A stretch of 33,981 bases of DNA from Roseomonas rosulenta. Its GTDB lineage: Bacteria; Pseudomonadota; Alphaproteobacteria; Acetobacterales; Acetobacteraceae. The position numbers were made by a program, and so were the translations under genes. Where the stretch lies: the NCBI RefSeq assembly GCF_016106005.1, contig NZ_JACADR010000017.1, positions 1 to 33,981 of the forward strand, written 5' to 3'. Below, one piece after another: positions 7,089 through 25,399 of this stretch; positions within the stretch are counted from its first letter, which is position 1; each line of letters opens with the position of its first letter. Below the pieces are notes generated by a model. The model was not told the origin of the DNA. It worked only from the letters and a program-made list of their open reading frames with translations, and did not search any database.

Positions 7089-7322
7089 CTTGTCCTCCGC
7101 GATGTGCAGTGCGGATGGACCCTGCCGGCGGGTGCCGACAGGCGCTCCGCAGCAGGCAGATGGTGCGTTTCTGTCGCGAACGAAGGGGGGAGGCTGGGAA
7201 AGCCGTTGACGGCACTGTCAGAATAAGTTGACAGTTCAATCCGACAGGATGTGATGACGGACGTGTTTCGCCATCGCCGCGCGGCACCCCGCGCCCGCCA
7301 CGCCGGAGGGAAAGGTCAGACG
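7089..7322. other. Divergent control region between DUF2189 gene and crtE
   Basis: This is the longest stretch without a gene in the window (234 bases). It holds a perfect PpsR palindrome, flanked by extra TTGAC-type half-sites at about 7206 and TCCGACAG at about 7240. It also holds a plausible crtE promoter (TTGACA 7228-7233, TGTGAT 7250-7255, 16-base spacer) and the crtE ribosome site GGAGGGAAAGG at about 7305-7315. Local AT content is higher than in the surrounding coding DNA. Confidence 0.7.
7216..7233 (+). promoter_or_regulatory. PpsR/CrtJ operator before crtE
   Basis: TGTCAGAATAAGTTGACA is an exact match to TGTC-N10-GACA, and the match extends to 6-base arms CTGTCA/TGACAG. Its right half is also the likely -35 box (TTGACA), so binding would block RNA polymerase. 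The site lies 90 bases before the crtE start. By analogy with Rhodobacter it should repress the crtE-led superoperon in oxygen and light. Confidence 0.85.
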
Positions 7323-9364: not shown

Positions 9365-9382
9365 TGTCAGTTTGGCTTGACA
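9365..9382 (+). promoter_or_regulatory. PpsR/CrtJ operator 1 of the bchC promoter
   Basis: TGTCAGTTTGGCTTGACA is an exact TGTC-N10-GACA match with 6-base arms CTGTCA/TGACAG. Its right end TTGACA (9377-9382) is a consensus -35 box; a possible -10 TACGCT lies 16 bases further on. Together with the second site it forms the tandem arrangement known from bchC promoters of Rhodobacter. Confidence 0.87.
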
Positions 9383-14982: not shown

Positions 14983-15807
14983 ATGGCCATGCTGAGTTTC
15001 GAACGCAAATACCGTGTCCGCGGAGGCACCCTGGTCGGCGGCGACCTGTTCGACTTCTGGGTCGGACCGTTCTGGGTCGGCTTCTTCGGCGTGACCACGA
15101 TCTTCTTCACCGTCGTCGGCACGGTGCTGATCCTGATGGGGGCTGCGATCCAGGGCACCTGGAATCCGTGGCTGATCAACATCGCGCCGCCGGATCTCTC
15201 CTACGGCCTGCGCCTGGCGCCGATGCGCGAAGGCGGGTTGTGGCAGATGATCACGATCTGCGCGATCGGCGCCTTCGTCTCCTGGGCCCTGCGCCAGGCG
15301 GAGATCAGCCGAAAGCTCGGCATGGGGTACCACATCCCGATCGCTTATGGTGTGGCGGTCTTCGCCTACATCACGCTGGTGGTGATCCGCCCGGTGTTGA
15401 TGGGCGGCTGGGGCCATGCCTTCCCGTACGGCATCTGGAGCCACCTCGATTGGGTGTCCAACGTCGGCTACCAGTACCTGCACTTCCACTACAACCCGGC
15501 ACACATGATCGCGGTGTCGTTCTTCTTCACCACGACCTTCGCGCTCTCGCTGCACGGCGGCTTGGTGCTCTCGGCCCTGAACCCGCCCGAAGGCGAACCG
15601 GTGAAGGCGCCCGAGCATGAGAACACGTTCTTCCGCGACTTCATCGGGTACTCGATCGGCACGCTGGGCATTCACCGCCTGGGGCTGTTCCTCGCGCTCT
15701 CGGCCGGGTTCTGGAGCGCCGTGTGCATCGTGATCAGCGGTCCTTTCTGGACGCGGGGCTGGCCCGAATGGTGGGGCTGGTGGCTGAACCTGCCGATCTG
15801 GAACTGA
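14983..15807 (+). CDS. pufL: Photosynthetic reaction centre L subunit
   Basis: PufL is one of the two core subunits of the type II reaction centre, with five membrane helices. The 274-residue sequence is offset by one from Rhodobacter numbering. His154 would ligate the accessory BChl, His174 (NPAHM) the special pair, and His191 and His231 the non-heme iron. Tyr163, equivalent to Tyr L162 near the cytochrome side, is present. GGAGGAG precedes the ATG at good distance. The gene follows the pufA hairpins and is 22 bases before pufM. Confidence 0.98.
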
Positions 15808-15829
15808 CGGGAAGGAAAGGGCAGACACC

Positions 15830-16810
15830 ATGGCCGAATACCAGAACATCTTCACCCGGGTGCAGGTCCGCGGACCGACACCCTACCCGGGCATCCCGCT
15901 CGGTCCCGACAACGACGCCCGGGACGGTACGCCGACCGAGGTCCATCTCTTTGGCCGCCTGGGCGATGCGCAGATCGGGCCGATCTACCTTGGCTACACC
16001 GGCATCCTCTCGCTGCTCTTTGGCTTCATCGCCTTCGAGATCATCGGGCTGAACATGCTGGCCTCGGTGAACTGGAACCCGCTGCAGTTCGTCCGGCAGC
16101 TCTTCTGGCTCGCGCTCGAACCACCTGGCCCTCAGCATGGGCTGCGCTTCCCGCCGATGCGCGAAGGCGGCTGGTGGCTGGTCGCCGGCTTCTTCCTGAC
16201 GATGTCGATCCTGCTGTGGTGGGTTCGCACCTATCGCCGGGCACGTGCGCTCGGCATGGGCACGCATGTGGCCTGGGCCTTCGCTGCCGCCATCTGGCTC
16301 TACCTGGTGCTGGGCTTCATCCGCCCGATCGCCATGGGCTCCTGGAGCGAGGCGGTGCCCTTCGGCATCTTCCCGCACCTCGACTGGACCGCGGCCTTCT
16401 CCATCCGATACGGGAACCTGTTCTACAACCCGTTCCACGCGCTCAGCATCGTCTTTCTCTACGGGTCGACCCTGCTGTTTGCGATGCACGGTGCGACCAT
16501 CCTCGCCCTTGGTCGCTACGGCGGCGAGCGCGAGATCGAGCTCACGCTCAACCGTGGCACCGCAGCCGAGCGCGGTGGCCTGTTCTGGCGCTGGACGATG
16601 GGCTTCAACGCCACCTTCGAGAGCATCCACCGCTGGGCCTGGTGGTTCGCCGTGCTCTGCCCGATCGCGGGCGGCATCGGGATCCTGTTGACCGGCACGG
16701 TGGTCGACAACTGGTACCTCTGGGCGGTTGATCGCCACTTCGCCCCTGCCTACCCGACGCCGTGGCCGGCGACGGTCGATCCTTCGATCACGCAGGGAGC
16801 GGCGCGATGA
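15830..16810 (+). CDS. pufM: Photosynthetic reaction centre M subunit
   Basis: PufM pairs with PufL to hold the special pair, bacteriopheophytins, quinones and iron. The 326-residue protein has His183 (accessory BChl), His203 in NPFHAL (special pair), and His220 and His267 (iron). Glu235 in GGEREIE matches the bidentate iron ligand Glu M234 of Rhodobacter. The C terminus is slightly extended, as in species whose reaction centre carries a bound tetraheme cytochrome. The stop overlaps the pufC ATG in ATGA. Confidence 0.98.
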
Positions 16811-17898
16811 GCACCTTCAACCTTAAGGTGGGCGCTGCCGTCGGCGCCCTCGTCCTCGCGGCGATCCTGGTGCCGACCTTCGAGCGGCCCCCGGTGCAGA
16901 CCACGCAGGGCGGCTTCCGCGGTACCTCGATGGGCACGGTCGTCAATCCGCGCCTGCGTGCCACCACGGTGGCGGCGAGCCAGGTGCCCGCCGCGCCCGA
17001 GGCCGCCGACAATGACGGCGACCGCGCCAGCGCGATCTATCAGAACGTGCAACTTCTTGGCGAACTGTCGAATTCCCAGTTCCTGCGGATCATGCAGTCC
17101 ATGACGGAATGGATCGTCCCGCAGGCGGTGCGCGACGAGGGCAATGGCTGCGCCTATTGCCACAACGTCGAGAACATGGCGTCCGACGAGGTCTACACGA
17201 AGGTGGTCGCGCGCCGGATGCTGCAGATGGTGCGCACCATCAACAACCATCCGCATGTCGGGCAGACGGGCGTCACCTGCTACACCTGCCACCGCGGCCG
17301 GCCCGTGCCTGCCGAGGTCTGGTCCGCGCCCGTGCTGCCGCAGCACGGCCTGCAGGCGCAGACCGGACAGAACCACCCCTCGCCGGCGGCGGGGCTGTCC
17401 TCCATGCCGGTCGATCCCTTCTCTCCCTATCTGCTGGGCGACCGCAACATCCGCGTGATCAGCCAGACTTCGCTGCCACGCTACAACACGACCAGCATCC
17501 AGCAGACCGAGGGCACCTACGCGCTGATGATGCACATGTCCTCGAGCCTCGGGGTCAACTGCACCTTCTGCCACAACAGCCGGTCCTTCGCGGCGTGGGA
17601 GAGCAGCCCGCCGCAGCGTGTGACCGCCTGGCACGGCATCCGCATGGTGCGCGACGTGAACATGTCCTACATCGCGCCGCTCACCCCGCTCTGGGCCGCC
17701 AATCCGAATGGCCCGCCGGAAGCGGGCCCTCGCGTCGCACGCCTCGGACCGGCCGGCGACGCACTCATGGTCAACTGCGCCACATGCCATCGGGGCCTGA
17801 ACAAGCCACTCAACGGGGCCCCGATGCTCCAGGACTATCCCGAACTGCGTGCAATCAGCGGCGGACCTGCCAGGTCGGCAGCTCTCGTTCCGCAGTGA
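16807..17898 (+). CDS. pufC: Reaction centre tetraheme cytochrome c subunit
   Basis: PufC sits on the periplasmic side of the reaction centre and re-reduces the oxidised special pair. The 363-residue protein has exactly four heme motifs: CAYCH (115-119), CYTCH (158-162), CTFCH (252-256) and CATCH (324-328). Methionines placed in helices before the motifs are the likely axial ligands for three hemes. The N terminus has a single hydrophobic segment (about residues 8-23). No lipobox cysteine is seen, so it is probably held by an uncleaved membrane anchor rather than a lipid. The start at 16807 overlaps the pufM stop. A strong terminator follows. Confidence 0.97.
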
Positions 17899-17993: not shown

Positions 17994-19520
17994 ATGGCGC
18001 GCGACGGCAACGAGACACCACGCGACTCACGACCGCATGCCGTGGTGATCGGCTCCGGCTTCGGCGGGCTCGCCGCTGCGATCCGCCTCGGTGCGCGGGG
18101 CTGGCGCGTGACGGTGCTCGAGAAGCTCGATGCGCCGGGCGGCCGCGCCTACGTGTTCCGCCAGGACGGCTTCACCTTCGATGCGGGCCCCACCATCATC
18201 ACCGCGCCCTACCTGCTCGAGGAATTGTGGTCGCTGGCCGGGCGGCGCCTGTCGGACGATGTCGACCTGCGGGAGATGAACCCCTTCTACTTCATCCGCT
18301 TCGACGACGGCACGGTGATGCGCTGTTCCGCCGACCTCGAGGCCACCCGCGCCGAGATCCGCCGCATTGCGCCCGAGGATCTGGCCGGCTTCGAACGCTT
18401 CATCCTCGAGAGCGAGAAGATCTACAAGGTCGCCTTCGAGGAACTCGCCGATCGGCCCTTCCACCGCTTCGGCACGCTGCTGAAGGCCGCGCCGGACATG
18501 ATCCGGCTGCAGGGCTACCGCACGGTCTATTCGCGCGTCAGCGACTACTTCTCGAACGAGAAGCTGCGCATCGCCTTCTCCTTCCACCCGCTGCTGATCG
18601 GCGGCAACCCGCTGACCACGACAGCCTATTACTGCCTGATCGCGCATCTGGAGCGCATGCATGGCGTGCACTACGCGATGGGCGGCATGGGTTCGCTCGT
18701 GCAGGGTATGGTGGGGCTGATCGACCGGCTCGGCGGCAGCCTGCGCTGCAACGCCGAGGTCGCACGCATCGAGGTCGACCAGGGCCGCGCCACCGGCGTC
18801 ACGCTCTCCTCCGGGGAGCGGATCGACGCGGACATCGTCGTCTCGAACGCCGATGTCGCCTGGACCTATTCGAAGCTGCTCGGCCACCACAAGCGTCGCC
18901 GCTGGACCGACCGCAGGATCGCCCGCGCGCGATACTCCATGAGCCTCTTCGTCTGGTACTTCGGCACGAAGCGCCGCTACGACGACGTCTACCATCACAC
19001 CATGGTGCTCGGCCCGCGCTACGGCGACCTGCTGCGCGACATCTTCACCCACAAGCGCCTGTCCGAGGATTTCAGCCTCTACCTGCATCGGCCGAGCGCG
19101 AGTGATCCTTCGCTGGCGCCGGAGGGCTGCGATTCCTTCTACGTGCTGGCCCCCGTGCCGCATCTGGGCAGCGGCACCGACTGGACGGCGAAGGCGGAAT
19201 CTTATCGTGCGGCCATCCAGCAGCGGCTCGAGCAGACCGTGCTTCCGGGCCTGGGGGATGCGCTCGTCACCTCCCGCGTGATGACGCCGCAGGATTTCCG
19301 CGACCGGCTGCTATCGGTCAACGGCGCGGCCTTCGCACTGGAGCCGCAGCTCTTCCAGAGCGCCTGGTTCCGTCCGCACAATGTCAGCGAGGAGGTTACT
19401 AACCTGTTCCTCGTGGGCGCGGGCACGCATCCCGGCGCAGGCGTTCCGGGGGTGATCTCCTCGGCCAAGCTGCTCGACCAGGTGGTGCCGGACGCCGTGG
19501 CCTTCGCCCGGACCGCATAG
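17994..19520 (+). CDS. crtI: Phytoene desaturase
   Basis: CrtI is an FAD enzyme that introduces the double bonds turning phytoene into neurosporene or lycopene. The 508-residue protein has the N-terminal dinucleotide motif VVIGSGFGGLAAAIRL, then EKLDAPGGRAYVF and FDAGPTIIT. The family C terminus is FLVGAGTHPGAGVPGVISSAKLL. GGAGG at 17981-17985 is a strong ribosome site for the ATG at 17994. The immediately preceding terminator leaves no room for a separate promoter. The gene converges on crtD with only 15 bases between the stops. Confidence 0.96.
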   Translation: MARDGNETPRDSRPHAVVIGSGFGGLAAAIRLGARGWRVTVLEKLDAPGGRAYVFRQDGFTFDAGPTIITAPYLLEELWSLAGRRLSDDVDLREMNPFYFIRFDDGTVMRCSADLEATRAEIRRIAPEDLAGFERFILESEKIYKVAFEELADRPFHRFGTLLKAAPDMIRLQGYRTVYSRVSDYFSNEKLRIAFSFHPLLIGGNPLTTTAYYCLIAHLERMHGVHYAMGGMGSLVQGMVGLIDRLGGSLRCNAEVARIEVDQGRATGVTLSSGERIDADIVVSNADVAWTYSKLLGHHKRRRWTDRRIARARYSMSLFVWYFGTKRRYDDVYHHTMVLGPRYGDLLRDIFTHKRLSEDFSLYLHRPSASDPSLAPEGCDSFYVLAPVPHLGSGTDWTAKAESYRAAIQQRLEQTVLPGLGDALVTSRVMTPQDFRDRLLSVNGAAFALEPQLFQSAWFRPHNVSEEVTNLFLVGAGTHPGAGVPGVISSAKLLDQVVPDAVAFARTA

Positions 19521-19535
19521 GCCGGGGATCGCGCG

Positions 19536-21065
19536 CTACCGGCCCACCTTCATCGCGATCACGCTGCGGCGCCGGCCGGCACGGTCTTCCAGCAGCCGTG
19601 CCGCTGCCAGACGGCCGGACATGGTCGCCATCGGCACGCCCGGGCCGGGATGGACGCCGCCGCCGGCCAGGTACAGGCCCGCCACGCCGCTGCGTGCCCC
19701 GGGCCGCGCGAAGCTGCCGTTGAAGCCGTGCCCGAGCCGGCCATAGAGCGCCCCGCCCGTGGCGGGAAACAGCGCATGGAAGCCGGCAGGTGTCGTCGCC
19801 ACCTCCGCGCCCGCTTCGCGCCGCACCGTCAGGCCGCAGTCGCGCAGCACGGCGAAGGCGCGCTCGCCCACGGCTTCGGTCGCGGCGCGGTCCATCGGCG
19901 CGCGGTCGCCATCCGGCGGTGCGTTGACCAGCAGCAGCAGGCGTTCGCGCGCGCCGGGGGTCGGGCGTTCCGCGCCGCCGCGATCCTGCGCGCAGACATA
20001 GACGGTCGGCGCCGGCACGATCGCGCGGCGGCGGAAGATCGTCTCGAACTCCGCCTGGTAGTCCTCGGCGAAGAAGACATTGTGGTGGTCGAGCGCAAAG
20101 CCCTCGGTGGGGGCGTGCATGCACCAGGTCACGGCGGAAAGCGTGCGCGCCTCGCGCGGCACGGGCTCGGCCGCGGCGCGCGCGCCGTCGCCGAGCAGCC
20201 CGGCCGCCAGCGCATCCGGCGCGCCGTTGAACACCACGGCGTCGGCCTCGATGCGCTCCCCATCGGACAGCTCGACACCGGTGGCGCGGCCGCGTGCCAC
20301 AAGGATGCGCCGCACCTCGACGCCGAAGCGGAACGTCGCCCCCTGCGATTCCGCGAGGCCACGCACGGCCTCGGCCACGCGCCGCATGCCGCCCTCGACC
20401 AGCCAGACGCCGTCCTGTTCGACATGCGCGATCAGCATCAGCGTGGCGGGGGCGAGGAAGGGGGAGCAGCCGACATAGGTGGCGTAGCGGGCGAACAACT
20501 GCCGCAGCCGCTGGTCGGCAAAATGCTCGCCGAGCGCGTTCCACAGCGTCGCGAAGGGCGATGTGCGCACCAGCCGGTCCACATGCGCGAAGCCGATCCG
20601 CCGCACCAGGTCGAACTGCGACGGACGTTCCGAGGCGATGAAGGGGCCGACCAGCGTGCGGTAGATGCCCTGTGCGCGCGTGCAGAAGGCGCGATAGGCC
20701 GCGGCTTCGCGCGCGCCGGCGAAATCGCCGATCGCCTCGGCGGACCGCGCCACGTCGGCAAACAGGTCGAGCTGCCCGCCGCGCCGCCAGGCATGCCGGG
20801 CGATGATCCCCGCCTCGTGCAGGACCAGGTGATCCTCCAACCGCTGCCCGGCGTCGCCGAACAGCCCGTCGAAGATCCACTTCATCGTGAAGACGGTGGG
20901 GCCGCCGTCGATGCCCACGCCATCGACCTCGACCCGGCGCATCTTGCCGCCGGGGGCGGATGCGCGGTCCAGCACCGTCACCCGTGCCCCGCGCCGTGCG
21001 AGGTCGGCGGCGGCCGCGAGCCCGCCCATGCCCGCACCGACGACGATGACTCGCGGTTCAGCCAT
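19536..21065 (-). CDS. crtD: Methoxyneurosporene/hydroxyneurosporene dehydrogenase
   Basis: CrtD is a CrtI-related FAD enzyme that adds the C3,4 double bond to 1-hydroxy carotenoids in the spheroidene/spirilloxanthin route. The 509-residue protein has the FAD motif VVGAGMGGLAAAADLARRG, the segment APGGKMR, and DGGPTVFTM, which is more CrtD-like than CrtI-like. The C terminus is YLAGGGVHPGPGVPMATMSGRLAA. It lies 6 bases downstream of the DUF2306-like gene, so the two are co-transcribed. Unlike in Rhodobacter, it is not next to crtC, which is 3.4 kb away. Confidence 0.92.
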   Translation of the reverse strand: MAEPRVIVVGAGMGGLAAAADLARRGARVTVLDRASAPGGKMRRVEVDGVGIDGGPTVFTMKWIFDGLFGDAGQRLEDHLVLHEAGIIARHAWRRGGQLDLFADVARSAEAIGDFAGAREAAAYRAFCTRAQGIYRTLVGPFIASERPSQFDLVRRIGFAHVDRLVRTSPFATLWNALGEHFADQRLRQLFARYATYVGCSPFLAPATLMLIAHVEQDGVWLVEGGMRRVAEAVRGLAESQGATFRFGVEVRRILVARGRATGVELSDGERIEADAVVFNGAPDALAAGLLGDGARAAAEPVPREARTLSAVTWCMHAPTEGFALDHHNVFFAEDYQAEFETIFRRRAIVPAPTVYVCAQDRGGAERPTPGARERLLLLVNAPPDGDRAPMDRAATEAVGERAFAVLRDCGLTVRREAGAEVATTPAGFHALFPATGGALYGRLGHGFNGSFARPGARSGVAGLYLAGGGVHPGPGVPMATMSGRLAAARLLEDRAGRRRSVIAMKVGR

Positions 21066-21071
21066 GCGGCC

Positions 21072-21809
21072 TCAGGCAGCGACGGCGCGGCGCGCGGCGA
21101 ATTGCCGGTCCACCGCGCGCCAATGCCACAGGATGATGCCGATGCCCGTGGCGCATGGGATCGCCCACATGATGGGATGCAGCGCCAGCTCCGGCAGGAT
21201 GCGCACCGAACCGAATGCCATGAAGGCGGTGTAGACGGAGATGCCCGCGCCGACCAATGCCTTCACGTGTTCCTTCAGCCAATAGGTCGGCCCGGGCGAC
21301 GAGGCCCATAGGAAGCGCAGATTGGTCACCACCGTCGCGACGCCCACGACGGCGATGCCGTACATCAGCGGCTGTCCGATCAGCCAGCCCTGCAGCGCGC
21401 AGTTCAGCGCGGCGAGCAGCAGCAGGTACTGCAGCGCGATGTTGAGCGGCGTGCGGTTGCGCTCATGCCCGCCGCGCTTGTTCAGCACCGCGAGCCAGCC
21501 ATACCAGGCGAGGTTCACGGTCAGCAGCCCGGTGGTGAGCATCATCCAGCCGAAGATGCCGCGCAGGAAGGATGGCTCGAAACGGCCTTCCAGGTTCGGA
21601 TGCGTGCCGATCGGGTCGATCAGCGTGAGGCTCGCCATGCACATCGCAAGGCAGCCGGTAACGAGCATGCAGCGGTTGAACAGCCGCCCCCACCAGCGGT
21701 GATTGGCACCGCCCTTGCGGCCGATCACCGGGACCCAGAAGGCCAGTGCACCCGTCGCGCCCGTCACGATGTGGGCGGCGACCAGGCTGTGGAACAGGAG
21801 AAGTTCCAT
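21072..21809 (-). CDS. DUF2306-like multi-pass membrane protein upstream of crtD
   Basis: This 245-residue protein has about seven hydrophobic segments. The first part has the pattern H-x3-G-x2-G-A-L (His13) and then GRKGGANHRWWGRLF (His37), like the DUF2306 family, which has no assigned reaction. The paired conserved histidines in or next to membrane helices could bind a metal or heme. The ATG at 21809 is chosen because GAGGG precedes it and the protein then starts with a membrane helix. The frame stays open a further 49 codons across the inverted repeat, which is unlikely to be coding. crtD follows after 6 bases. The call is by pattern only. Confidence 0.6.
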   Translation of the reverse strand: MELLLFHSLVAAHIVTGATGALAFWVPVIGRKGGANHRWWGRLFNRCMLVTGCLAMCMASLTLIDPIGTHPNLEGRFEPSFLRGIFGWMMLTTGLLTVNLAWYGWLAVLNKRGGHERNRTPLNIALQYLLLLAALNCALQGWLIGQPLMYGIAVVGVATVVTNLRFLWASSPGPTYWLKEHVKALVGAGISVYTAFMAFGSVRILPELALHPIMWAIPCATGIGIILWHWRAVDRQFAARRAVAA

Positions 21810-21844
21810 CTTCGATGGCCCTCGCGCTTTGGGCCGACAATCAG

Positions 21845-21868
21845 GCTTGACAGATGCGGCTGTCAAGC
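21845..21868. promoter_or_regulatory. 24-bp inverted repeat in the divergent DUF2306-crtD / P450 control region
   Basis: Nine-base arms GCTTGACAG and CTGTCAAGC flank the centre ATGCGG, giving a perfect inverted repeat. Each arm carries a consensus -35 hexamer (TTGACA), one on each strand, 8 bases apart. The hexamers TGACAG and CTGTCA are those of the PpsR sites before crtE and bchC, but in opposite order. It lies 36 bases before the DUF2306-like gene and about 87 before the chosen P450 start, so it can serve both directions. Confidence 0.7.
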
Positions 21869-21955
21869 AACGGAATGGCGCAGTTGCAAGGGACGTGCGC
21901 CGGTCGTGAAGCGCCCAGAAAGCGGCGGTTCGCCGCGTCGTGCGAGACGGCCGCA

Positions 21956-23338
21956 ATGAGCGCGGCGCTCGCGGTCACCACGGCGCCCTGGGCGCCCTTC
22001 GAGCCGCCGCATCCGCGCTCCCTGCCGGCGGTCATCGCGCTCATCCGCGCCATGCTCGAGGGGGAGGGCAACCTGCTCGGCCTGCTGCCGGCCGAGGCCT
22101 ATCGCATGCCGATCGGCCCGCTGGGATGGTCGCGGCGATCGACCATCATCGTGAACCGGCCGGACCTCGTGCGGCATGTGCTGGCCGATCCGGAAGGCAT
22201 CTTCCCGAAATCCGACCTCATGGTGGAGGCACTCGACCCGCTGATCGGCGATTCGATCTTCGTCTCCTCCGGCGACACCTGGCGGCGCCAGCGCGCCATG
22301 ATCGACCCGGCGCTGACCATGATGCGCGTCAACCGCGCCTTTCCCGCGATGGAGGCCGGCGCGGCTGCGGCGGAGGAGACGCTCGCGCGCAGCGCCGCGC
22401 CCTTCTCCCTCGACCTGATGATGAGCCACCTCACGGCGGACATCATCTGCCGCACGGTCTTCTCCACCAGCCTCGAGAGCCAGGTCGCGCACGAGGTCTT
22501 CGACGCCTTCACCGACTTCGAGCGCTCGGTCGCGCAGGTCGAGATCCGCCGCCTGATCATGGACCGCGCCTGGACGCGCATTCCGCAGAAGCAGCATGTG
22601 CTGGATGCCTGCACGCTGATCCGCGGACATCTCGGCGCGCTGCTCGACACGCACCTGGCTGAAGGTGCGTCCTTCGACGACATCTGCCAGGCGGTGATCG
22701 AGGCGCGCGACATCGAGGGCCGTGCCTTCACGCGCGAGGAACTGATCGACCAGCTCGGCGTGCTGTTCCTGGCAGGGCACGAGACGAGTGCCAGCGCGCT
22801 GACCTGGGTGTTCTTCATCCTGGCCACCCAGCCTGCGCTCGTCGCGCGCCTGCGCGCGGAGATCGCGGAGGTGTGCGGCGATGGGCCCATCACCTTCGAG
22901 CACACGCGCAAGCTGCCCTTCATCCGCAACATCTTCCGCGAGACGCTGCGGCTCTATCCGCCGATCACCTTCCTGCCGCGCGTGGCGAATGTCGCGACCT
23001 CGCTGGACGGGTACCGCGTGAAGCGCGGCGCCCTGGTGATGGTCGCGCCCTGGGTGCTGCACCGCCACAACGCCTACTGGCGCAACCCGCACATCTTCGA
23101 CCCCGACCGGTTCGACCGCGAGGCCGAGATGACCACGGGCGCCTACATCCCCTTCGGCATCGGCCCGCGCGTCTGCGCTGGCGCGGCCTTCGCGCAGGTG
23201 GAGGCGGTGCTGCTGGTCGCGCGCCTGTTCCGCCGCTTCGACTTCCATGTGGCCGCGCCGGAGTCGGTGCGCCCGGCGGCCCGGCTGACCACGCGCCCGG
23301 TCGGGCAGATCATGGTCACCGTGACGCCGGCGCGATGA
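21956..23338 (+). CDS. Cytochrome P450 in the photosynthesis cluster
   Basis: This 460-residue heme monooxygenase is complete. The C-helix segment GDTWRRQR is near residue 106, the I-helix oxygen-activating motif AGHETS at 273-278, the K-helix E-T-L-R at 329-332, and the heme loop FGIGPRVCAG at 400-409 with ligand Cys407. No membrane anchor is seen, so it should be soluble and need ferredoxin-type partners encoded elsewhere. The ATG at 21956 gives a normal length. Earlier in-frame starts at 21854 and 21875 lie in or beside the inverted repeat. The stop overlaps the next ATG (ATGA). Its substrate is unknown; carotenoid is a reasonable guess from context. No crtA-type oxygenase is in the window. 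Confidence 0.93.
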   Translation: MSAALAVTTAPWAPFEPPHPRSLPAVIALIRAMLEGEGNLLGLLPAEAYRMPIGPLGWSRRSTIIVNRPDLVRHVLADPEGIFPKSDLMVEALDPLIGDSIFVSSGDTWRRQRAMIDPALTMMRVNRAFPAMEAGAAAAEETLARSAAPFSLDLMMSHLTADIICRTVFSTSLESQVAHEVFDAFTDFERSVAQVEIRRLIMDRAWTRIPQKQHVLDACTLIRGHLGALLDTHLAEGASFDDICQAVIEARDIEGRAFTREELIDQLGVLFLAGHETSASALTWVFFILATQPALVARLRAEIAEVCGDGPITFEHTRKLPFIRNIFRETLRLYPPITFLPRVANVATSLDGYRVKRGALVMVAPWVLHRHNAYWRNPHIFDPDRFDREAEMTTGAYIPFGIGPRVCAGAAFAQVEAVLLVARLFRRFDFHVAAPESVRPAARLTTRPVGQIMVTVTPAR

Positions 23339-24489
23339 GAACCGTCCTCCTTACCCTGGGACGGCTGCCCAAGGCGCTGGACCTGGCGCGCGCCTTCCAT
23401 GCGGCGGGCTGGCGCGTCGTGGTCGCGGAACCCTTCAAGCGGCATCTGGCCGGCGCGTCGAATACCGTGGCGCGCAGCGTGCAGGTCACCGCGCCGGCGA
23501 CGGACCGCGAGGCCTATCTGCGCGACCTGCTGCGCGTGGTGGAGGAGGATGCCGTCGATCTGGTCGTGCCGGTCTCGGAGGAGGTGGTGCACGTCGCCGC
23601 GCTGCATGGCCGCCTGCCGGCGCGCACGCGGCTCTTTGCCATGCCGCAGGACGCCGTGCTCGCCGCGCACGACAAGGGCAGTTTCGCCGCGCAGTCGGCG
23701 GCCTGGGGGCTGTCCGTGCCGCGCACCCATCCGCTCGGCAGCGAGCAGGCCGCCGCACTGGCCGCGGAACAGGACGTGGTGGTGAAGCCGCTGCATGCGT
23801 GTTCGGGGCGCGGCGTGCGCCTCATCGCGCGTGGTGCGGCGCTGCCACCCGCCGAACCCGATGCGCCAGCGATCGTGCAGGCGCGCGTCCTCGGCATCGA
23901 GCGCAGCACCTGCTCCCTCGTGCATGACGGCTTGGTCAGCGGCACCGTCGTCTACCAGGGCGTGATGCAGTCGGGCTCGGTCAGCATCGCCTTCGAACGC
24001 GTGCAGGACCCGCTGATCGAGGCCTTCGTGCGCGACTACGCCGCCGCCACGCGCTGGACGGGCTTCCTCTCCTTCGATTTCATGCTGGATGGACGGGGGC
24101 AGCCCTTCGCGATCGAGTGCAACCCGCGCACCACCAGCGGCCTGCATTTCTTCGAGGTCGAGGACCTCGCGCGCGCCGTGATCGACCCGGCGCATCCGCT
24201 GCGCCACCGCGCATCGCCGCGCCTGCAGCAATTCTATTCCTGCCTGACCGAGACGCAGCTCTCGCTGTTCCGCGGCGGCGGCTTCCTGCCCAAGCTACGT
24301 GCGCTGGTCACCACGCCCGACGTGACCTGGAGCGCGCGCGACCCGATGCCCTTTCTGACCATGACCTTCACCACCTGGCCGATCATCCGCGCCGCCATGG
24401 CGCAGCGCGCGACCTTCGGGGAGGTCGCGACCCTCGATGTCGGCTGGCGCGCCGAGCACGCGCTCAGCGCAGCGTCCGGGGCACCCTGA
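23335..24489 (+). CDS. ATP-grasp family enzyme coupled to the P450
   Basis: This 384-residue protein has a Rossmann-like pre-ATP-grasp domain (about residues 1-100). An ATP-grasp fold (about 105-290) follows. Lys114 and Lys151 are likely ATP-binding residues, a glycine-rich loop SGRGV spans 157-161, and the metal-binding E-C-N-P-R is at 261-265. The last 95 residues are a separate, hydrophobic-rich tail I do not recognise. ATP-grasp enzymes join a carboxylate to an amine, thiol or similar nucleophile through an acyl phosphate. The ATG overlaps the P450 stop, so the two act together. The 3' end overlaps the convergent crtC by 26 bases. The fold is clear but the substrate is unknown. Confidence 0.85.
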   Translation: MRTVLLTLGRLPKALDLARAFHAAGWRVVVAEPFKRHLAGASNTVARSVQVTAPATDREAYLRDLLRVVEEDAVDLVVPVSEEVVHVAALHGRLPARTRLFAMPQDAVLAAHDKGSFAAQSAAWGLSVPRTHPLGSEQAAALAAEQDVVVKPLHACSGRGVRLIARGAALPPAEPDAPAIVQARVLGIERSTCSLVHDGLVSGTVVYQGVMQSGSVSIAFERVQDPLIEAFVRDYAAATRWTGFLSFDFMLDGRGQPFAIECNPRTTSGLHFFEVEDLARAVIDPAHPLRHRASPRLQQFYSCLTETQLSLFRGGGFLPKLRALVTTPDVTWSARDPMPFLTMTFTTWPIIRAAMAQRATFGEVATLDVGWRAEHALSAASGAP

Positions 24490-25399
24490 AGGGCAGCATC
24501 GAATACAGGATCGGCGAGCGGAAGCGCCGCAGGTTCAGGTATTCATGCACCGCCGTCGCGTCCTGGCCGAGCAGCCGCGTGCGGATTTCCGATCGCGAAT
24601 AGAAGGGTGCATCGACCAGCGTGCGCGTCGCGGTGGCCTGGCCGCCCTCGGCGCGCGTGGGGCGTGGCAGGCGCCATAGCGTCTGCGTCATGCGGGCCGG
24701 TGGCGGCGGTTCGAAATCCTCCACGCTGCCGTCTTGCCCGACACGCAGCGCCAGCGACTGATGCGAACCATTGCGCCGCGTCGCGTTGTAGAGCACCGCC
24801 GTCGCATCGCGCATCGGCGCGCGGCACCAGTCCCATTCGGCGAAGTCGTCCTCGAGCGGCGCGGTGCCGGTGTTGGTGTCGAAATAGGCCGGCCCGGACC
24901 AGGACAGGGCGGGGTGCGTCAGCGCCACCTCCACCCGCGCCCGCGCGGCGATGGGCTGCCAGCGGTGCCGCCCGGCGCCATCCAGGACGAAGGCGCGATC
25001 CGACACGGCATCGGGCAGCACGCGCACCGTGCCTGACAGGCGGGAGGGGATCGGCGCCGTCACTTCCTCGATGCCGATCGTCAGCGCCGTGCCATCCCAG
25101 CGCAGCGACGACGGGCCAATGGCGAGCGTATCCGCATCACGCTTCAGCGCGCTGGCGCGGCGGTCCGTCATCGCCCAGCGCTTCGGCGTGCCATAGAGCG
25201 CCACGTTCATGCAGCAATGCTCGGCCGGGTCCACCTCGCCGCGCCGATGCGCCCAGGCATACCAGGGCGAGAACACCGTGCCGATGAAGGCGATGATGGT
25301 GATGCCATGCGTCCCGTCATCGGACAGCGCATCGACATACCACCAGCGATACCCGCGCGAGGCGACGGGCTGGTCGAAGGACCAGGGGCGGGCGCTCAC
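24464..25399 (-). CDS. crtC: Carotenoid 1,2-hydratase (hydroxyneurosporene synthase)
   Basis: CrtC adds water across the terminal 1,2 double bond of acyclic carotenoids, making the tertiary hydroxyl that CrtF methylates. The 311-residue protein shows the family N terminus with GYRWWYVDALSDDG and IIAFIGTVFSPWYAWA, then HCCMNVALYG. In the middle it has YFDTNTGTAPLEDDFAEWDWCRA. The GTG start at 25399 overlaps the stop of the GMC oxidoreductase gene in GTGA, so crtC is read from that operon rather than with crtD. The last 26 bases overlap the convergent ATP-grasp gene. Assignment is strong. Confidence 0.93.
   Translation of the reverse strand: MSARPWSFDQPVASRGYRWWYVDALSDDGTHGITIIAFIGTVFSPWYAWAHRRGEVDPAEHCCMNVALYGTPKRWAMTDRRASALKRDADTLAIGPSSLRWDGTALTIGIEEVTAPIPSRLSGTVRVLPDAVSDRAFVLDGAGRHRWQPIAARARVEVALTHPALSWSGPAYFDTNTGTAPLEDDFAEWDWCRAPMRDATAVLYNATRRNGSHQSLALRVGQDGSVEDFEPPPPARMTQTLWRLPRPTRAEGGQATATRTLVDAPFYSRSEIRTRLLGQDATAVHEYLNLRRFRSPILYSMLPFRVPRTLR

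Follow-up and report, generated by a model that had tools for sequence, protein, structure and literature searches.

The stretch between the carotenoid genes crtD and crtC of Roseomonas rosulenta holds part of a gene module that encodes a cytochrome P450, an ATP-grasp ligase and a seven-transmembrane protein (TMP), usually together with a 1-hydroxycarotenoid 3,4-desaturase of its own (CrtD-A). The module is real, conserved, linked to phototrophs and to crt genes, and overlooked; its enzymes have intact catalytic motifs, its promoter is conserved, and the mechanism proposed for it is plausible. We propose, at just under an even chance, that anoxygenic phototrophs use it for oxygen-dependent carotenoid tailoring, in which the P450 would oxidise the end of a C40 carotenoid and the ATP-grasp enzyme would carry out a ligation.

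Gene order and conservation of the module

The window, meaning the whole 33,981-nucleotide stretch of DNA analysed, is contig C79 of an assembly of 5.28 Mb in 671 contigs, and close relatives of its locus come from Roseomonas and Neoroseomonas (L026-L031). A family search of the window identified crtB, a crtF-like gene, pufM, crtI, crtD and crtC, with crtB, the crtF-like gene and crtC scoring below the model cut-offs. The photosynthetic reaction centre genes pufL, pufM and pufC (14983..17898, forward strand; PufM, Pfam Photo_RC 2.2e-105; PufL and PufC named by reading of the protein and by synteny) lie upstream of a gene for a crtI-type phytoene desaturase (17994..19520, forward strand; TIGR02734, 631 bits, cut-off 238). 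By reading of the proteins, the window also contains the end of bchD, bchO, bchE, bchJ, crtE and bchCXYZ, as well as open reading frames resembling LH1 beta and alpha. Three genes fill the interval between crtD, which encodes the module-linked CrtD-A (19536..21065, reverse strand; NCBIfam NF045637), and crtC, which encodes a carotenoid 1,2-hydratase (24464..25399, reverse strand; NF045922 2.7e-95, 319 bits, below the cut-off of 400): the gene for TMP (21072..21809, reverse strand; 245 residues) and, divergent from it, those for the P450 (21956..23338, forward strand) and the ATP-grasp ligase (23335..24489, forward strand). The last of these is convergent with crtC, and the 3' ends of the two genes overlap.

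The P450 matches its Pfam family at 1.1e-70 (239 bits, cut-off 22.8), and its haem cysteine, ExxR and I-helix threonine motifs are invariant in all nine aligned sequences. Likewise, family profile, motifs and structure model all indicate an intact ATP-grasp enzyme, so that an initial sequence-only reading of a complete P450 and a complete ATP-grasp enzyme, joined by an ATGA overlap within a photosynthesis cluster, is borne out by profiles and motifs. That reading had further described the two as fused, when they are in fact separate genes that overlap by ATGA, and had treated the pair as the whole unit, which overlooked the TMP gene and, usually, a CrtD-A gene. What it took for an unrecognised C-terminal tail of the ATP-grasp protein is a conserved region that is ordinary for the ATP-grasp family: model NF005315 (PRK06849) aligns over residues 2-375, with a score of 242.5 bits that is under the equivalog cut-off of 406. 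Distant PRK06849-type ATP-grasps were also observed at three plasmid loci (L176-L178), in a recurring operon with KAS III, NAD(P)-oxidoreductase, MBL and F390-synthetase-like genes and, in two of the three, GNAT.

To place the module in a wider setting we used a pattern-based scan of a species-genome collection (84,980 species), which returned 536 relatives of the ATP-grasp protein; the best 80 were kept as loci, two of them from one MAG. Among these best 80 of 536, the P450 gene adjoins and precedes the ATP-grasp gene in all 78 loci in which the latter does not start at a contig end, and TMP is present in all 68 in which the P450 is uncut by a contig end. Of 30 P450/ATP-grasp gene pairs, 20 share a 4-nt overlap; in one locus (L098) a 64-nt gap separates the two genes. 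Within the family, the ten other carriers all encode a P450 ortholog 72-78% identical to that of the window, directly beside the ATP-grasp gene and adjoined by TMP. PIG-L, GMC and further neighbouring genes of the window behave as chance passengers of the photosynthesis cluster, occurring in 0 of these 10 family loci and in 5 or 6 of the best 80 of 536, all close relatives, and the pair might be read in the same way. This reading is largely refuted, and we consider it extremely improbable: conservation spans three classes, the mean P450 identity is 72.7%, the pairwise distances of the four module proteins are congruent (correlations of 0.854-0.920 over 46 loci), and the promoter is conserved.

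The promoter region in question is the 146-nt intergenic interval between the divergent TMP and P450 genes (21810..21955, assigned to neither strand). It carries the element GACA-N8-TGACA-N8-TGTMA (21836..21865, forward strand), which is present in 43 of 69 orthologous TMP-P450 intergenic regions, the window included, and has only 44 matches on both strands of the best 80 of 536 loci plus the window (2.7 million positions). The spacing is strict, as TGACA-N8-TGTMA occurs in 45 of the 69 regions and in none with spacings of 4-7 or 9-12. A second motif, TGTN12ACA, which we take to be the PpsR/CrtJ consensus, is absent from the window promoter, which carries the longer element instead. It occurs in 21 of 69 promoters (mononucleotide shuffling predicts 1.13 and local density 0.87; the next best spacing gives 6), a count that overstates independence because related species repeat the same site. 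Neither motif is found in 8 of 69 regions. GACA-N8-TGACA-N8-TGTMA could be a differently arranged operator of the PpsR-like type, or may represent overlapping promoters. Elsewhere in the window, TGTCA-N8-TGACA, presumably a PpsR/CrtJ-type site, lies upstream of crtE and bchC (7216-7233 and 9365-9382), two occurrences against 1.76 expected by chance, although both are well positioned.

TMP is only weakly DUF2306-like: the window protein scores 10.1 bits, under the Pfam gathering score of 31.6, and of 41 members examined 31 give a weak match, the strongest at 6.5e-5. Its structure model contains seven long helices (pLDDT 90.7), and a search with this model returned no informative structural relative. 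His13, His70 and Glu180-His181 are invariant. As guesses, TMP could be a helper of the P450, a redox partner or a carotenoid carrier.

The window CrtD scores 669.3 bits against NF045637, above the equivalog cut-off of 580. In a tree whose backbone is weakly supported, the CrtDs encoded next to TMP, 50 of 50, group together in a clade (support 1.0, or 0.999 after two further sequences were added) that spans alpha-, beta- and gammaproteobacteria. Outside it fall the crtC-adjacent CrtDs of module genomes, 15 of 17 of which form a clade of their own (0.993), as well as 19 CrtDs from phototrophs that lack the module. The quartet crtD-TMP-P450-ATP-grasp occurs by itself among unrelated genes in Plastoroseomonas arctica (L058) and a Rhodovarius MAG (L096); both of these lone quartets belong to the promoters with neither motif, and the photosynthesis cluster of P. 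arctica contains another crtD together with crtC. The loci of Paracraurococcus, Dankookia and Paeniroseomonas comprise a TMP/P450/ATP-grasp trio, with a sole CrtD of the crtC-adjacent type, indicating that CrtD-A is a usual but not universal member of the module.

Distribution and association with phototrophy

The best 80 of 536 loci come from alpha-, beta- and gammaproteobacteria. Carriers include Paracraurococcus ruber, Dankookia rubra, Rubritepida flocculans, Roseococcus suduntuyensis (L105) and Falsiroseomonas, and further Novosphingobium fuchskuhlense, Rhabdaerophilum, betaproteobacterium UKL13-2 and a Steroidobacteraceae MAG. The sequence-only reading had linked the pair to photosynthesis, a claim that synteny and co-occurrence support, and had held that finding it mostly outside photosynthesis clusters would speak against this link. 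Among the best 80 of 536 loci, the fetched DNA contains crt genes in 75, crtC in 40 and puf or bch genes in 38, and a whole-genome search for pufM covering 35 loci (5 with local puf/bch) was positive in 31 of 34 genomes; however, many carriers have the pair away from puf/bch genes, and the outcome thus favours that reading in part. The three carrier genomes in which pufM was not found (L067, L070, L085) are all MAGs. Together these tests covered 67 of the best 80 of 536 loci, 64 with and 3 without phototrophy genes.

Genomes were also drawn at three taxonomic ranks. In the family draw the ATP-grasp gene was found in 11 of 150 genomes, the window's own included, with pufM in 10 of the 11 carriers versus 52 of 150 overall; the eleventh carrier, whose genome is 80% complete, shows bchO together with crt genes on its contig. 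The association has a Fisher p of 2.8e-4 with the window's own genome excluded, or 1.4e-5 when the eleventh carrier is counted as a phototroph, values that kinship among the genomes makes too optimistic. In the order draw the gene occurs in 46 of 395 genomes, which represent 10 of 84 genera. No fewer than eight genomes of the genus to which the window belongs lack it, including the pufM-positive G104. The class draw yielded pufM in 25 of 385 genomes and the ATP-grasp gene at ortholog level in the window's own genome only. As most of the drawn phototrophs are without the module, it is not essential for phototrophy.

At Novosphingobium-type loci (L051, L086 and others) the module lies away from puf/bch together with a CrtY-like cyclase (by reading), a divergent crtI (about 45%) and, at 8 loci, a divergent crtB (39-41%), hinting that the substrate there may be monocyclic or cyclic.

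Candidate substrate and chemistry

If the module tailors carotenoids, CrtC and the module CrtD would generate an acyclic 1-hydroxy (or methoxy) 3,4-didehydro C40 carotenoid, one end of which the P450 would oxidise, aided by TMP in the membrane. The most likely route would take a terminal methyl through the alcohol and aldehyde to a carboxylate, which the ATP-grasp enzyme would activate as an acyl phosphate and couple to some small nucleophile such as an amine, leaving a polar conjugate in, or next to, the light-harvesting membrane. P450s can turn a methyl group into a carboxylate, and ATP-grasp enzymes activate carboxylates and ligate them; oxidation followed by ligation would be natural chemistry for the pair. 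The steps of this scheme differ in strength. That the P450 acts on a carotenoid is probable; that it yields a carboxylate we suggest tentatively, at somewhat less than an even chance, and the same holds for ligation of that carboxylate by the ATP-grasp enzyme.

The best evidence for a carotenoid substrate comes from two pufM-positive genomes of the family, G103 and G109, which encode a P450 57-58% identical to that of the window and in which no ATP-grasp match was found at 1e-10. G109 (L180:6795-11281) has crtD, crtC and the P450 gene, the latter two overlapping by 4 nt (GTGA), followed by a convergent TMP gene; G103 (L181:788-4657) has crtD, crtC and the P450 gene on a 4.7-kb contig on which TMP is not seen. 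The P450 thus accompanies crtC and crtD where the ATP-grasp gene is missing, which ties it to an acyclic carotenoid, and the ATP-grasp enzyme looks like an addition to a P450/crtC/crtD set. Along with synteny and co-occurrence, this crtC-coupled variant supports the initial suggestion that the P450 may oxidise a carotenoid.

The same two phototrophs imply that the P450 product is useful alone, which favours a different outcome: that oxidation of the carotenoid by the P450 stops at a hydroxyl, aldehyde or keto group, the P450 being an aerobic stand-in for CrtA or for the rhodopinal oxidase, with no carotenoic acid formed and with the ATP-grasp enzyme carbamoylating or carboxylating the product or building a small donor molecule. 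Among proteins of solved structure, the one nearest in sequence to the ATP-grasp protein, the carbamoyl-phosphate-synthase-like 2pn1 (3.8e-6), fits such a role. So would PurK and biotin carboxylase, which match its structure model, as does PurD, all three within one Z unit (24.7 to 24.0; PylC, 22.8), so that the fold does not indicate substrate or bond type. In the sections consulted, a 2023 review of carotenoids states that the rhodopinal genes are unknown (PMC10604819). The 4-nt overlap in two-thirds of the P450/ATP-grasp pairs fits consecutive steps on one molecule better, and we think this outcome rather unlikely.

The best solved sequence relatives of the P450 are CYP97 carotene hydroxylases, a likeness that did not hold up against controls as evidence of substrate: the P450 scores 170 bits with CYP97A3, against 119, 137 and 166 bits for three unrelated P450s from related genomes. 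A profile of P450 orthologs reached 207 bits, higher than the single sequence, the controls being single-sequence. This lack of specificity, the very wide substrate ranges of P450s and ATP-grasps, the position of the P. arctica and Rhodovarius quartets outside the photosynthesis cluster, and the distant ATP-grasp relatives in KAS III/F390-synthetase-like operons all favour action on another molecule of the photosynthetic membrane (a quinone, a hopanoid, the bacteriochlorophyll tail or a lipid), with crt adjacency reflecting co-regulation only. Yet the lone quartets still include a CrtD of their own, and in the genomes lacking the ATP-grasp the P450 remains beside crtC; we judge a non-carotenoid substrate unlikely.

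Carried a step further, the carotenoid-tailoring proposal would have the products be carotenoyl amides: acyclic C40 carotenoic acids that the ATP-grasp enzyme has coupled to an amine or amino acid. Their synthesis would fall to a portable module of four genes with a promoter control of its own, and they would serve in the LH1 of aerobic phototrophs or around it. We offer this as a speculative extension, conceivable but on the improbable side. A blue-shifted LH1 (854-856 nm) is described for P. ruber, Roseococcus thiosulfatophilus and a Roseomonas strain in the portion of a 2025 review of aerobic anoxygenic phototrophs (AAPs) that we consulted (PMC12654162), and carotenoyl amides may bear on it; of these organisms, only P. 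ruber was seen to have the P450, ATP-grasp and TMP genes.

Relation to known systems

The enzyme families are known, and as a carotenoid-tailoring unit the module appears new to the literature searched. A literature search for such a module gave no description among the matches listed, and no paper was found under the name NF005315/PRK06849. The consulted part of the 2023 review names no P450 as a pathway enzyme (PMC10604819), and the word P450 is absent from the main texts of two gemmatoxanthin papers (PMC8342508, PMC7844134), an AAP gene-cluster study (PMC3176799), a study of Sphingomonadales carotenogenesis (PMC5989583), an Acetobacteraceae phylogeny (PMC10715153) and the 2025 AAP review (PMC12654162). 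If our proposal is true, many bacteriochlorophyll-containing bacteria have an extra, unnamed carotenoid branch that is absent from the literature searched, many light-using bacteria may make an undescribed pigment, and amide-type conjugation would enter photosynthetic pigment chemistry.

Among the closest known systems is the spirilloxanthin pathway of purple bacteria (crtBIECDF), to which the window has counterparts in crtB, crtI, crtC, CrtD, the crtF-like gene and crtE (by reading), but which is without a P450, an ATP-grasp enzyme or a seven-transmembrane protein. The CYP97 enzymes are plant proteins that act on ring ends, and the likeness of the module P450 to them is no sign of a common substrate. 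NF005315/PRK06849 proteins have their distant plasmid relatives in the KAS III/MBL/F390-synthetase-like operon, a setting unlike that of the module.

Staphyloxanthin-type C30 acids, made by CrtN/CrtP-like FAD enzymes, an acyltransferase and a glycosyltransferase, resemble the proposed module product in being oxidised and then conjugated; they differ in the use of FAD enzymes and in that the locus read as such is a separate one in the window's own genome. No carotenoid carboxylate is known in carriers except possibly one in P. ruber and a C30 carotenedioate reported for the genus Roseococcus, and this scarcity speaks against the tailoring proposal. It could be imagined that the module makes the C30 carotenedioate and its reported diglucosyl ester, as R. 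suduntuyensis carries the module and the dioate is stated for Rc. thiosulfatophilus in the consulted portion of the 2025 review (PMC12654162). However, a tandem pair of CrtI-family genes lies elsewhere in all six Acetobacteraceae genomes searched (a seventh genome, a Novosphingobium, had none), and the best model for the window crtB is a C40 enzyme, with a score below its cut-off. In the window's own genome, the tandem pair on contig C26 (L139:6364-11417) is followed by an acyltransferase-like gene (so labelled by reading only, with no family match) and a glycosyltransferase gene; this is probably a staphyloxanthin-like C30 carotenoid set, of which the models name the CrtI family only. Such a separate locus argues against a role of the module in making the C30 dioate, which is better explained by the tandem pair, and we regard that role as very unlikely.

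A further parallel is gemmatoxanthin of Gemmatimonas phototrophica, according to the consulted part of its description a linear C40 caroten-16-oic acid with 1'-methoxy and 3',4'-didehydro groups that is bound in the photosystem, with an unknown oxidase for which the authors propose CruH-like proteins (PMC8342508). It thus sets a precedent, within a photosystem, for a linear C40 carotenoid that ends in a carboxylate, as proposed for the module. If our proposal is true, the module would in turn supply candidate genes for the terminal carboxylation of acyclic carotenoids, a step still lacking an assigned enzyme in the case of gemmatoxanthin.
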